Shown here: one piece after another, positions 29,399 through 34,554 of the stretch | Layout: every line of letters starts with the position of its first letter | How positions within the stretch are numbered: position 1 is the first letter of the stretch | Assembly (NCBI GenBank): GCA_902791165.1 | Contig: CADAVB010000012.1 | Location: 1 to 55,259 of the forward strand | DNA: 55,259 nt | Source: an uncultured Bacteroidia bacterium | GTDB lineage: Bacteria > Bacteroidota > Bacteroidia > Bacteroidales > F082 | Direction of reading: 5' to 3' | Notes under the pieces: model-generated | What the model saw: the letters and a program-made list of their open reading frames with translations, nothing else | What the model was told of the DNA's origin: nothing | Databases searched by the model: none | Made by a program: the position numbers and the translations under genes

Positions 29399-29549
29399 CT
29401 ACAAACTCCTCAAACACAATATAAATTTGTACGTTTTCTCCTTGCATTTGTCCCTAAACGGGCAAAAAGTGCTTTCGCGGACGAATAAACGACTGCAAGA
29501 AGTGGTATTTCCACCTAACTGCCTTTTTCCGTGAAAAAAATGTCTGAAC

Positions 29550-29580
29550 GTTGCGCGTGTACGGAAAATTTGTATTTTTG
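29550..29580 (+). promoter_or_regulatory. Promoter of the structured RNA
   Basis: GTTG (29550-29553), a 19-base spacer and TATTTTTG (29573-29580) match TTTG-N19-TAnnTTTG with one mismatch. Transcription should start around 29584-29586, right at the first helix of the RNA. Confidence 0.7.
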
Positions 29581-29584
29581 CAGC

Positions 29585-29797
29585 GGTTCTTTGGCGGACT
29601 TTGTGCCGCCGACATAATAGAACACGAAGCGTTATGCTCGTCTTGCTGATAGAAACGTGAGAAACTTCTAAGAAATGCAAGGACTGGTATAATGGTTCGC
29701 GCTGTTAGCGTGGACTATATTGTCATTTCTGCATTTCTAGGTAATTCTCACGACCTCTATCAGGAGAAGTGGTATATCAGTGCCACGCTTCTTTTGT
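29585..29797 (+). ncRNA. Structured RNA of about 210 nt with its own terminator
   Basis: No convincing reading frame crosses this stretch, but base pairing is dense. Hairpin 1: GTTCT (29586-29590)/AGAAC (29619-29623) enclosing GGCGG/CCGCC. Hairpin 2: ACGAAGC (29624-29630)/GCTCGT (29636-29641). A long rod follows: CTGATAG (29646-29652)/CTATCAG (29757-29763), CGTGAGAA (29656-29663)/TTCTCACG (29745-29752), CTAAGAAATGCA (29668-29679)/TGCATTTCTAG (29730-29740) with one bulge, and an apical stem CGCGCT-GTT-AGCGTG (29698-29712) extended by weaker pairs. AGAAGTGG (29765-29772) with CCA..CTTCT (29783-29792) and a T run forms a terminator. I do not recognise the family. It resembles a retron msr-msd layout or a 6S-like rod only in outline. 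The promoter is exact enough to expect a discrete transcript. Confidence 0.75.
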
Positions 29798-29802
29798 TTA
29801 AT

Positions 29803-29888
29803 CTGTTCGTTGGGGCACGGATGGGCGTAAAAGAGTGAACGGGGAAGCCGAAAACCTTAGAGTAGGCGGGGAAAGCAAGCAACTACAG
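29803..29888 (+). promoter_or_regulatory. Second RNA domain closing at the start codon of the membrane protein gene
   Basis: CTGT (29803-29806) and GTTG (29809-29812) pair with CAAC (29880-29883) and ACAG (29885-29888), one base before the ATG at 29890. Inside are GCC/GGC and ACG/CGT stems in a purine-rich sequence (GGGGAAGCCGAAAACC). It may be a leader controlling translation of the downstream gene. The pairs are short, so the fold is less certain than that of the upstream RNA. Confidence 0.45.
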
Positions 29889-29889
29889 A

Positions 29890-30738
29890 ATGAATGTGAA
29901 TACAAATACCGAAGTTACATTATATGATTTCCTCAATTATGAGGTGATTGGCGTATTGTTGCTTTTCATTTGTGGTTTCGAACCGAGTGATACGATAGAT
30001 AATTGGCCATTTTTTGTCTTTGCATTCATTGCTGGGCTTGTGTTTTCAAAGCTTGCTGAAAATGCATTCTGGACAAAATGGACAAGAAATCCGAAATGGG
30101 CGATTCGAAAGGGAGTTGATACTTTGAATAACTCCATAGGATACAAAAAGTTTGATTCTGAACATTATACAAAGAACGTCTATTATATAGAGTATTATTG
30201 CGTTTCTAAAAATCCTATTTATAAAACCATACAAATACTTGAAACACAATATAGATTTGTAGAAAATCTGATTTTGTTGTCAATTATTTGTTTTGTTATT
30301 TGTTTTTGTAAGCCTTGTGAGTTAAAACAATTGTTTTGTTTAGGCTGCAAAAGCGGTGAAGCAATTATTGGAATTTATAGTTTTATGATACTTTTTACTT
30401 TTGTAGGGTGTATTATTAATAAATTCCCACTGCCACAAAAGGGAATGGTTGAACTACGCAAAACAATAGTTTCAATAGTAATTTACTCTTTGATAATAGT
30501 ATGCTTGATAATCTCTAATTGGTTACATATCAAGTCATTTTTTGATAGCTTTAATTCGGTTTCAGATCTCGATCTTTTATCATTAATTCGGTTTGATACC
30601 AGTTCTTCTTATTGTTTTATATTCGCTGCATTAGTTTTGCTATATCTCGCCTATAAAATCCAACTCAAAATATCCACATTGGTAATTGAAGGAGCCTATT
30701 ATTCAAATATAATTGATAATCAAAAAGAAAGAAACTAA
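29890..30738 (+). CDS. AT-rich multi-spanning membrane protein, unknown
   Basis: A 282-residue protein with about six membrane helices (18-30, 38-54, 125-142, 157-177, 192-213, 239-258) and a soluble loop at 57-120. No enzyme motif is visible; cysteines cluster at 132-153 (CFVICFCKPCELKQLFCLGC). Base composition is clearly more AT-rich than the flanking operons, a sign of transfer. The gene lies directly behind the structured RNA and 14 bp before the next gene, with which it surely forms a unit. I cannot assign a family. Confidence 0.7.
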   Translation: MNVNTNTEVTLYDFLNYEVIGVLLLFICGFEPSDTIDNWPFFVFAFIAGLVFSKLAENAFWTKWTRNPKWAIRKGVDTLNNSIGYKKFDSEHYTKNVYYIEYYCVSKNPIYKTIQILETQYRFVENLILLSIICFVICFCKPCELKQLFCLGCKSGEAIIGIYSFMILFTFVGCIINKFPLPQKGMVELRKTIVSIVIYSLIIVCLIISNWLHIKSFFDSFNSVSDLDLLSLIRFDTSSSYCFIFAALVLLYLAYKIQLKISTLVIEGAYYSNIIDNQKERN

Positions 30739-30752
30739 TAAATTAGATTAGT

Positions 30753-32102
30753 ATGGAAAATATAGATGAAGCCGAAGAAATGAACGATTCACTTGTTCCG
30801 ATGGAAAAAACACCAAAAGAAATCACATCATTAGAACAAATGGAGTCGTGGTTAACAACCTTGGAAATTGGTGCAAATATTTCTGCGCAAGAAGCTTTAA
30901 AGGCTCAAATACAAGTCATTAGATTCATCCAATCGCCAACTTTGATAGATACAACACTTGATACATTAATTCTGTGTTTGAAAAAATCTCTCAAAAAAGC
31001 GGAGAATGAAGATGAAAAAGAGCATTTAAGAGAATCCTTCTCACTAATGATTCAAAACTATGTGTTCTTTTTCGATGCGCGTATGCAATATGCAATCAAA
31101 GAAAACAAAGATGCAGCCCGACAAATCTTTTTGCAGGCAGGTCAAATGCTATCAAATAGTGTAAAAAATGTGGCACTTATGGCTGTTAGCGGAAAAAGGA
31201 TAAAGGAGATTGCAACTGTTATGGTACATAATTTATTTGATGAAGACGATGATGCAAGTGCGATAAATCTATTTAATCGTATCTGGATATGGTGGAACAA
31301 AGACAAAATCATAGCAGAAAAGAAAGAAGAGTTTTATGTTACTCTTTATAATATTTGCAAGAAATTGGGAAAATATCAACCGCTGATAGGTGAATCTATT
31401 CTTATCAATGGTATGATAGAACGCTATACGCCAGCTATTTGCAATTATTCTCGAGAAAAAGCATTAACTCAAGGTGAATTCAATGTTTCCAAGTGGCAAA
31501 AACGCTTTAATGAATTGGAAAAGAAGCAACAGAAACAGCAAAATGAAATAGAAAAGAAGCGACAGAAACAGCAAAATGAAATAGAAAAGAAGCGACAAGA
31601 AGAACTTGTTCGTATTGATGCTAATATTAAAGAGTATTCGACAAAAGGGATTCGTTGGAAAAGATTTATTTTTGTTTGTTTAGGTTCGCTGGGAACATTT
31701 GTTGTTAGCCTAATAATTGGATTGATTCGTCTGATAGCCAAAGAAATTGATGACAATAATGTTGGTGGTTGGTTTGCGGAACAAATGTATTGGACGTTGG
31801 GGTTTATTGGAGTTGTTATTGCTGTTTTCTTTCTCGTCGAAATTGTCAATATTATCAATAGTCGTAATTATGCAAAGAAATTGATTAGGAATAGAGATAA
31901 TGACATTGCAAAAGTTAATCAACAATATGATGTTAAAAGGGATGAATTGCAAAACCAAATGAATGAATTGCAACGACAGATGGAAAGCCAAATGAATGAA
32001 TTGCAACGACAGATGGAAAGCCAAATGAATGATGTTTATGCAGAAGCACAGAGTATTGCTGAAGAACTAAAACAAATAGCGGAGTCGTATAACGAAATTT
32101 AA
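30753..32102 (+). CDS. Membrane protein with two coiled coils carrying 11-residue repeats, unknown
   Basis: A 449-residue protein. Residues 1-245 are soluble and helical (TPR-like or all-alpha). A charged coiled coil (250-290, EKKRQKQQNEI units) leads to two membrane helices (304-329 and 344-368), then a second coiled coil (375-449, QMNELQRQMES units). Both coiled coils are built from exact 33-bp tandem repeats. The two helices would put both coiled coils on the same, probably cytoplasmic, side. It is AT-rich like its partner at 29890-30738. No known domain recognised; the layout recalls membrane sensors or effectors of defence systems, which is inference only. Confidence 0.72.
   Translation: MENIDEAEEMNDSLVPMEKTPKEITSLEQMESWLTTLEIGANISAQEALKAQIQVIRFIQSPTLIDTTLDTLILCLKKSLKKAENEDEKEHLRESFSLMIQNYVFFFDARMQYAIKENKDAARQIFLQAGQMLSNSVKNVALMAVSGKRIKEIATVMVHNLFDEDDDASAINLFNRIWIWWNKDKIIAEKKEEFYVTLYNICKKLGKYQPLIGESILINGMIERYTPAICNYSREKALTQGEFNVSKWQKRFNELEKKQQKQQNEIEKKRQKQQNEIEKKRQEELVRIDANIKEYSTKGIRWKRFIFVCLGSLGTFVVSLIIGLIRLIAKEIDDNNVGGWFAEQMYWTLGFIGVVIAVFFLVEIVNIINSRNYAKKLIRNRDNDIAKVNQQYDVKRDELQNQMNELQRQMESQMNELQRQMESQMNDVYAEAQSIAEELKQIAESYNEI
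31518..31597 (+). repeat. 33-bp tandem repeat, first coiled coil
   Basis: Copies at 31518-31550 and 31551-31583 differ at one base (CAACAG/CGACAG), with a partial third copy to 31597. The unit encodes 11 residues (EKKRQKQQNEI). Confidence 0.9.
31955..32032 (+). repeat. 33-bp tandem repeat, second coiled coil
   Basis: Two identical copies, 31955-31987 and 31988-32020, and a partial third to 32032. The unit encodes 11 residues (QMNELQRQMES). It is unrelated in sequence to the first array but has the same length. Confidence 0.9.
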
Positions 32103-32133
32103 ACGGATACCACACTAACTAAACGGATATACT

Positions 32134-32352
32134 ATGCAAGTATTTCGTATCACACCCAAGCGCACCCTGCGCATCAATGGCCAGGTGTTGTCGCCAGAAA
32201 TGGTGGTTACCGTAACCACGAAAATGCAAGTTTCAGACCCGTTCTACAACGGCGCGGTCGAAATCCAAGAGGCGTACATGCGCATCTATGGCTTCGATTA
32301 CAAAAAGGCGTGTTGCAGAAAAGACTATTTCACTTTTGAAGCCTTGGGATAA
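32134..32352 (+). CDS. Small DUF6140-like protein
   Basis: 72 residues. The pattern FRITPKRTLRINGQVLSPEMVVTVTTK...NGAVEIQEAYMRIYGFDYKKA resembles the short DUF6140-type proteins I recall from Bacteroides accessory regions: a small beta domain followed by a YGxDxKKA helix. No function is known. Its TAA overlaps the ATG of the zinc-ribbon gene by one base, so the two are translated together. GC content returns to normal here after the AT-rich pair. Confidence 0.65.
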   Translation: MQVFRITPKRTLRINGQVLSPEMVVTVTTKMQVSDPFYNGAVEIQEAYMRIYGFDYKKACCRKDYFTFEALG

Positions 32353-32534
32353 TGGAAAGCATACTCACCAAACCCTGCCCCCGCTGCCAAGCTGAAGTCA
32401 CCCTCCTCACCCTGCCAGAGGGCGCAATGACAGACCCTGCGCCGCCCAAGAGGCGGCTGTTTGCCGTAAAGCGTTGCCCCAAATGCGGCAAGAGGGTGCT
32501 GTTTTGGGCGGGAGGGAGAGAAATCGCAGAATGA
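32352..32534 (+). CDS. Small zinc-ribbon protein, copy 1
   Basis: 60 residues with two CxxC knuckles (CPRCQ and CPKCG) about 33 residues apart, typical of a zinc ribbon that could bind nucleic acid or protein. The sequence between (LLTLPEGAMTDPAPPK) is shared with a second copy at 34366-34554. The coding DNA of the two copies forms direct repeats on either side of the AbiE pair. Confidence 0.7.
   Translation: MESILTKPCPRCQAEVTLLTLPEGAMTDPAPPKRRLFAVKRCPKCGKRVLFWAGGREIAE
32376..32505 (+). repeat. 130-bp direct repeat, left copy flanking abiE
   Basis: Aligns without gaps to 34396-34525; by eye 12 of 130 bases differ (about 91% identical). The shared part begins TGCCCCCGCTGCCAAGC and ends GGGTGCTGTTTT. 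Confidence 0.85.
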
Positions 32535-32569
32535 TTTTGAAAGATAGGCTTGAAAAGAATTGCCGAAGA

Positions 32570-32600
32570 TTTGTCATATCAACAAAAAGCCGTATTTTTG
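32570..32600 (+). promoter_or_regulatory. Promoter of abiEi-abiEii
   Basis: TTTG (32570-32573), exactly 19 bases, then TATTTTTG (32593-32600): a perfect match to the Bacteroidetes consensus. The start codon at 32638 follows after a leader of about 30 bases. Confidence 0.75.
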
Positions 32601-34365: not shown

Positions 34366-34554
34366 ATGAATGATAATATGGCACTTACCCGCACTTGCCC
34401 CCGCTGCCAAGCCGAAATCACCCTGCTCACCCTCCCCGAGGGCGCAATGACAGACCCTGCGCCGCCCAAGGCGCGGCTGTTTGTCGTCAAGTGTTGCCCC
34501 AAATGCGGCAAACGGGTGCTGTTTTTTAGTATGTCTTGCTGCATAGACCAATAA
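34366..34554 (+). CDS. Small zinc-ribbon protein, copy 2
   Basis: 62 residues, nearly the same as the 32352-32534 product over the CPRCQ to CGKRVLF core, with different ends. It is the right-hand partner of the duplicated DNA around abiE. The ATG at 34378 is another possible start. It stops 10 bp before the convergent ATPase gene. Confidence 0.65.
   Translation: MNDNMALTRTCPRCQAEITLLTLPEGAMTDPAPPKARLFVVKCCPKCGKRVLFFSMSCCIDQ
34396..34525 (+). repeat. 130-bp direct repeat, right copy flanking abiE
   Basis: Partner of 32376-32505. Recombination between the copies would remove 2,020 bp, containing exactly the abiE pair and one zinc-ribbon gene. Confidence 0.85.

Follow-up and report, generated by a model that had tools for sequence, protein, structure and literature searches.

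What is the role of a strongly folded RNA that lies directly in front of two genes for membrane proteins? The question is raised by positions 29,550 to 32,102 of contig CADAVB010000012.1 (assembly GCA_902791165.1, an uncultured member of the Bacteroidales); the whole stretch of 55,259 nucleotides that was analysed is referred to as the window. A first-pass annotation had proposed that the RNA and the two proteins encoded behind it (here ORF1 and ORF2) form an RNA-membrane system. We arrive at a different answer: the RNA is probably a mobile, cis-acting and pseudoknotted 5' leader of accessory genes, most of which encode exported proteins, and the window holds one of the many copies that occur in Bacteroidales of gut and rumen. 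By comparison of copies we show the features that would make it such a leader, namely covarying structure, an upstream promoter, a fixed distance to the ATG, unrelated genes behind it and exchange between sites; from these sequences we infer that the leader controls expression of the gene that follows.

A structured RNA without a known family

The structured RNA is real, as had been claimed. The segment 29586-29800 has a folding energy of -86 kcal/mol against -53.6 +/- 4.3 kcal/mol in 200 dinucleotide shuffles (z -7.48; 0/200 shuffles as good), and the fold contains the 5' hairpin, the long rod and the hairpin with a T-rich tail that had been described (Table 1). It also has no match in Rfam 15, and the first-pass annotation had not recognised it. 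At the gathering score the window yields tRNA only and no family for the core of the RNA, and 15 of the loci collected at that stage give no match. Among all matches at E<=10 within 29400-32400, a DUF805b-like element (RF02914) is the sole clear one; the five others have an E-value of 0.77 or worse and none is 6S. The DUF805b-like element is placed between the RNA and ORF1 and is distinct from the rod, and the core itself has no DUF805b match. A known housekeeping RNA such as 6S, which the earlier annotation had named as an outcome that could overturn it, would share the rod shape, but is extremely improbable given these searches and the nine matches to the RNA in one genome, which stand before different genes where we looked at them. 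On these grounds 6S and other Rfam RNAs were rejected. In literature searches for such an RNA, no title among those listed was on it (the supplementary candidate lists of PMC8040213 lie beyond what they covered). We thus did not find the family in Rfam 15 or, judged by titles, in the named searches, and regard it as new.

Of 138 cores, 8 without a recognisable end were dropped; 95 of the remaining 130 entered an alignment (A1) after allowing for redundancy, and from A1 a covariance model of the 168-position core (R1) was built. The model pairs hold in 93.9% of the cells of A1. Compensatory changes in the stems, which had been proposed as a check, are indeed found: 343 cells changed on both sides while keeping the pair, against 111 +/- 12 in 500 shuffles and against 18 to 83 when the partners were slid by 1 to 3 columns. 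One pair of P2b is G-C in 60 and C-G in 33 of the 95 rows, and neighbouring pairs covary too. P1 takes the form AAAGC with GCTTT (or its G-U form) in 11 of 25 weaker or later model matches inspected, and GAAGC/GCTTC in the rest of the family.

Two proposed pairings would make the leader pseudoknotted. In helix X the 5' strand TTATGCT-YRT-CTTGY would pair with the middle of the rod; 95.5% of the cells are paired in the TTATGCT part and 88.1% in the CTTGY part (A1). A full 7/7 match within positions 40-100 is seen in 136 of 154 cores (part of these at a later site); the corresponding figures are 114 of 770 for shuffles and 36 of 154 for the 3' part of the core. The second pairing, PK2, connects the loop of the last hairpin with the spacer: a full 7-nt match to the loop (G-U allowed) occurs downstream in 85 of 155 copies; 30 permutations gave 35.4 on average and 45 at most. 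Its partner site mostly starts 15-29 nt past the core, and variants include CAGTTCC/GGAACTG and TTGGCTC/GAGCCAA. Since P1, the local hairpin (P5) and PK2 share nucleotides, alternative states are suggested.

In the mechanism that we propose, a single promoter would drive the 5' hairpin, the core RNA, a short spacer and the gene, in that order. The 3' strand CCACGCTTC would pair alternatively with the 5' end (P1), within the local hairpin (P5) or, via CC, with the spacer (PK2). Because these pairings use the same nucleotides, the region could be switched by a factor or ligand in favour of one of them, which would open or close the stretch before the start codon or let the polymerase through the hairpin.

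Distribution of the RNA family

E-values of R1 are rough, and weak matches enter the counts at E<=0.001. We base no claim on matches under about 45 bits, with the exception of L198 and L204, which are named as weak; some matches of L189 and L190 (44-53 bits) could be distant forms or due to chance. When 29580-29800 was used as a DNA query, 22 of 60 relatives gave a match, and five places were matched in the window's own genome. With R1 at E<=0.001 matches were obtained in 42 of the 60 relatives, including 35 of the 36 in the genus; 23 of these 36 reach at least 100 bits (counted from the match list). The window's genome has nine matches at E<=0.001, five of them at E<=1e-8. The highest count per genome is 18 (G051); at least nine of these copies are no more than about 650 nt away from the end of a contig, a sign that longer repeats may surround them.

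The 20-mer GAAGCGTTATGCTYRNCTTG matched at least 119 stretches of GTDB contigs. All titles except those of L057 ('Firmicutes') and L110 ('Staphylococcus') name Bacteroidales or taxa that include them, with Bacteroides, Phocaeicola, Prevotella, Alistipes and Barnesiella among the genera. L110 belongs to a 2.6-Mb single-scaffold metagenome-assembled genome titled Staphylococcus (G065), which has four R1 matches at E<=0.001; the gene behind its RNA looks Bacteroidales by eye, so the title may be wrong. Ten genomes reached via the loci, chosen as carriers of the 20-mer, all match R1 (1 to 15 times each), and seven of them are named Bacteroides or Phocaeicola isolates with 4 to 15 matches. Cultured carriers of the RNA include B. 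gallinarum DSM 18171 (L070) and B. acidifaciens DSM 15896 (L052). Around the B. acidifaciens genome G060, 26 of 61 genomes match at E<=1e-10. A phylum-wide draw gave matches at E<=1e-8 in 4 of 198 genomes, the window's genome included; together with the matches across the order this indicates that the family is mainly found in Bacteroidales and that R1 is specific at that level. A plasmid or phage RNA was considered and rejected: no match to 29540-29900 of the window was obtained by blastn at E<=1e-3 in PLSDB and INPHARED. The 20-mer is contained in 17 IMG/VR contigs, one of which (L163) is, judged by eye, a mobilizable element with integrase, primase and relaxase genes.

A promoter upstream and a gene at fixed distance

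Bacteroidetes promoters follow the consensus TTTG ... TAnnTTTG, and the promoter claimed for the window copy fits the TAnnTTTG part (Table 1). In the tests below, copies with too little flank were omitted from each test. Of 152 copies, 137 have a TAnnTTTG box upstream, where shuffles would give 12.1, and in 107 of these 137 the box ends 35-49 nt before the core. The spacer before the ATG shows no excess of such boxes (3/129, chance 4.5). With a promoter ahead of the RNA and no recognisable one in the spacer, transcription of the gene probably starts at the upstream promoter, and the RNA is probably a transcribed 5' leader.

The position of the gene agrees with this. A same-strand ORF of at least 40 codons lies within 300 nt in 160 of the 161 collected copies (15 of these ORFs run off the end of the locus and 5 are under 60 residues); the ATG follows the core at a median distance of 56 nt, and at 40 to 100 nt in 126 of the 160. 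With the antisense side as control, an ORF of at least 60 codons is found behind 141 of 145 copies (66 of 132 on the antisense side), an ATG at 40-90 nt in 108 of 145 (against 11 of 132) and a signal-peptide-like start in 106 of 145 (against 15 of 132). The 20-mer fetched the loci of 123 of the 161 copies; among the 38 others the ATG lies at 40-100 nt in 25.

The RNA had been thought to end at a terminator, and this part of the earlier layout did not stand. Within 29400-32600 there are 2 terminator-like sites where shuffles predict 2.1, the supposed terminator has a loop that pairs with sequence further downstream, and the T-rich tail is neither a constant nor a rare feature; the RNA thus probably does not end at 29797. 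It might be argued that the RNA is a free small RNA with its own terminator, which acts in trans and is merely located before genes. The promoter would suit this, as would the tail (70 of 126 copies have at least five T among the 8 nt that follow the stem, or 64 of 126 counting from the last stem base; no shuffle control) and the many paralogous copies per genome, as described for FopS of B. thetaiotaomicron from the part of PMC11697453 consulted. Such an RNA would nonetheless leave the gene without a recognisable promoter of its own, as spacer boxes are at chance level, and pairing that continues past the hairpin and a fixed ATG distance are not expected from it; we consider it unlikely.

A second repeated spacer motif, approximately GTTGCGCCCGACACGWATTTAGGG, stands directly before the ATG in L007, L023, L026, L039 and others; against Rfam it gave no match at the gathering score (L023, L026) and none at E<=0.5 (L007).

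Genes behind the leader

By comparison of loci we show that the same core precedes many unrelated accessory genes of Bacteroidales, mostly for predicted exported or membrane proteins. We obtained 121 non-redundant proteins, 118 of which were sent to Pfam (three short or doubtful ones were omitted). A signal-peptide-like start was scored for 92 of the 113 proteins of 100 residues or more; among the remaining ORFs of these loci the figure is 274 of 902 (Fisher p ~1e-25). Pfam distinguishes 87 families among the 118 proteins; the commonest, BspA-type leucine-rich repeats, has 5 members, and the 25 of the 87 families listed also include WG repeats, Ig-like domains, trypsin, lipocalin and outer-membrane barrels.

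Exchange of core and gene

The RNA leader seems to move together with the genes behind it. L023 and L041 have an 858-bp unit in common (97.6% identical) at different chromosomal loci with unrelated flanks; it spans from about 103 nt before the core to just past an intrinsic-terminator-like sequence after the gene, and L028 has a different gene in the same place as L041. For L030 and L104 the upstream region, promoter and 5' hairpin are 93-100% identical, with a core identity of 74% (71% in random pairs) and unrelated genes. For L102 and L175 the gene and spacer are 83-94% and the core is 97% identical, and before GAAGCG identity amounts to 67% in the hairpin, 63% in the promoter and 43-46% upstream. 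The sequence of the 5' hairpin differs between copies and, in segment comparisons, tends to follow the site rather than the core.

Among 148 copies with full flanks, 8 pairs keep the upstream region and the 5' hairpin and differ in core and gene; 1 pair keeps the core too. Another 49 pairs have unrelated upstream regions and cores of at least 90% identity, with a median match of 2 nt before GAAGCG and a median of 41 nt unbroken from GAAGCG onwards; the genes are unrelated as well in 38 of them. The compared pairs are not independent, and part of the 49 may reflect old divergence with a constrained core, which would hardly explain L102/L175 and L030/L104. On this comparison we show core plus gene to be exchanged, as far as sequences tell, beneath resident promoters, with a junction at the first base of the core. 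Mosaic cores, with one outer third at 95% or more and the other below 78%, were absent among 12090 pairs of 156 cores. One pair has a first third of at least 95% and a last third below 80%; the middle third, which is most conserved, reaches 95% in 176 pairs, 92 of which have a first third below 80%. The lack of mosaics is no proof of movement as a unit, because mosaics would break stems.

The sharp edge and the lack of mosaics would also fit a core that is mainly a DNA element, that is, a folded attC-like recombination site or a homology patch for cassette exchange, with incidental transcription. We judge this improbable: it leaves the fixed upstream promoter, the fixed ATG spacing and the pairing with the spacer past the core unexplained, and the edge may partly be the limit of purifying selection. 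In addition, a single tyrosine recombinase query gave matches in 6 of 157 regions, all at a distance of about 3.9 kb or more (no systematic recombinase search was made). A further proposal, possible but rather doubtful, joins both aspects: a mobile Bacteroidales gene cassette with a pseudoknotted RNA switch as its constant part, in which core and gene would be swapped at GAAGCG under the promoters already present at the site, either through a dedicated DNA recombination or through copying from RNA. If true, newly gained surface-protein genes would come under one common RNA control from the start.

Links to mobile elements are seen in several loci. Of 157 locus regions, 32 of them with under 1 kb of upstream sequence, 13 have a MobV-type relaxase gene whose end lies less than 350 nt ahead of the core, and G357 has, judged by eye, a tandemly repeated mobilizable element with the RNA and three genes for exported proteins. 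In L023, L028 and L041 repeats of the TTATCGTCCATAATCGATAAAA type lie about 750 to 2100 nt behind the core, near ATPase-type genes beside the cassettes.

Several observations weigh against reading the RNA as a mobile leader. The controls for covariation are somewhat flattering, because the same alignment yielded the structure and its rows are related to one another. Changes in helix X are almost all one-sided (in the TTATGCT part exclusively so), a pattern that speaks weakly for this helix. The invariance of the core start is overstated because 123 of the 161 copies were fetched via the exact 20-mer. Two further sets bear on the junction: a single pair that keeps site and hairpin, whose core is doubtful (87%), and 4 pairs in which the upstream region is doubtful and which keep hairpin and core and not the gene. 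The signal-peptide test is a crude hydropathy rule. Finally, the T-rich tails leave room for termination or attenuation at the hairpin, and thus for a free small RNA or an attenuator.

The window island

In Table 1 we list the features of the window copy. As had been noted, the two genes are AT-rich (GC 0.30 for ORF1 and 0.34 for ORF2, against 0.49 for the window). A simple hydropathy scan supports the two hydrophobic segments claimed for ORF2; for ORF1 it yields five over threshold, against six claimed. ORF2 has weak matches under the Pfam cut-offs, and its best PADLOC match is LeoBC (1.3e-6, over the coiled-coil part).

Table 1 Features of the leader and the genes behind it in the window
Feature	Positions	Strand	Basis or remark
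Promoter	29551..29580	+	TTG, 19 nt, then TATTTTTG; fits TAnnTTTG; sequence inspection
5' hairpin of leader	29586..29624	+	Fold; segment comparisons between copies
RNA core, GAAGCG ... CGCTTCT, 167 nt	29626..29792	+	Model R1, 159.1 bits; covariation
Helix X 5' strand, TTATGCT-CGT-CTTGC	29632..29646	+	Proposed pairing with rod middle, crossing P2 stem
PK2 5' half, loop CAGTGCC of supposed terminator hairpin	29778..29784	+	Loop-downstream match counts
PK2 partner GGCACGG, past supposed terminator	29814..29820	+	6/7 pairs in window copy
DUF805b-like element (Rfam RF02914)	29838..29868	+	30.1 bits, under gathering cut-off 35.6
ORF1, membrane protein, 282 aa	29890..30738	+	ATG 97 nt past core; no Pfam or PADLOC match
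ORF2, 449 aa, two hydrophobic segments and coiled coils	30753..32102	+	Second gene behind leader

The accessory island that had been proposed, with its AbiE pair and ATPase, is confirmed. Between the flanking DUF4292 and TPR genes the window has about 6.7 kb, holding the RNA, ORF1, ORF2, small genes, AbiEi-AbiEii and an ATPase of the PADLOC candidate family PDC-S27. Fifteen same-genus relatives carry the two flanking genes on one contig; in 13 of these the gap between the genes is under 300 nt and the island is absent, and in G002 and G021 the distance is about 4 kb. Two small zinc-ribbon-type ORFs that resemble each other (32352-32534 and 34366-34554) bracket AbiEi-AbiEii like a module-flanking repeat, and a DUF6140 gene (32134-32352) precedes the first of them.

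This setting would suit the defence or toxin-antitoxin-like system of an RNA and two membrane proteins that the first-pass annotation had in mind, and two loci are compatible with it: in G302 a divergent RNA copy (40.7 bits) lies about 70 nt before the sole clear ORF1 homologue, so that the link between RNA and ORF1 may be old, and L204 has a weak R1 match (36.7 bits) upstream of an ORF2-like gene. The linkage of the RNA to the same two genes is, however, not repeated. At E<=0.001 ORF1 is found in 3 of 99 genus genomes (its own; G302, 56% identity, with a different gene after the homologue; and G278, two short matches, E 7.6e-4) and ORF2 in 2 of 99 (its own and, distantly, G297, 33-35% over the first half), and none of the 99 besides the window's genome has both. 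The RNA itself occurs across the order before unrelated genes and in 35 of 36 genus genomes, which is the kind of outcome that the annotation had itself listed as speaking against the system; neither is there a PADLOC model for ORF1. The proposed system is therefore very improbable and was rejected.

Comparison with known systems

The likeness to retrons and type III toxin-antitoxin systems that had been suggested found no support. The Pfam tables of 10 window proteins (for the TPR protein the best 25 of 36 families) contain no reverse transcriptase family, the rest of the genome not having been searched; as to a ToxN-type nuclease of a type III system, ORF1 has no Pfam match and ORF2 has weak ones below cut-off (repeats were not run).

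FopS small RNAs of Bacteroides are alike in their many paralogous copies in one genome, but are described as small RNAs that repress SusC-like transporters (PMC11697453, in the part consulted); the leader is set apart from them by this description, sequences not having been compared.

DUF805b RNA (RF02914) is likewise multi-copy in Bacteroidales and close before the ATG in the copies read. It differs in having 35 positions and a separate sequence, and most of the matches listed have no adjacent R1 match; for six of them, among these the one in the window, an R1 match ends no more than 50 nt ahead. DUF805b is found in 46 of the 60 relatives at E<=0.001, in 33 over the cut-off. In L213 (G024:C44), L214 (G025:C19), L215, L216 and L217 its matches follow one another on a single strand at intervals of 0.4 to several kb, as if one per gene.

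Integron gene cassettes combine a constant element with exchangeable genes, the constant element (attC) lying behind the gene, and an integrase acts on them. The present family resembles them in its constant element, its exchangeable genes and the exchange at a precise base beneath a resident promoter. Here the constant element lies before the gene, is probably transcribed and is long, and one query revealed no integrase beside the core (attC boxes were not searched for).

The closest likeness is to cis-regulatory leaders such as riboswitches and protein-binding leaders. A same-strand gene at a fixed short distance, an upstream promoter and compensatory changes in the stems are all present in the sequences, as are proposed pseudoknots and mutually exclusive pairings. 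Unlike these leaders, the RNA is tied to no single pathway or gene family, and the genes behind it are unrelated and mobile, as seen from the L023/L041 unit at two loci and the patchy occurrence of the window island. A leader shared by unrelated accessory surface-protein genes would give recently acquired genes a common point of control. Bacteroidales are major gut bacteria, whose surface and secreted proteins meet host, phages and competitors. The core provides a sequence handle for exchangeable genes on chromosomes and mobilizable elements, and makes it testable how transferred genes come under control.

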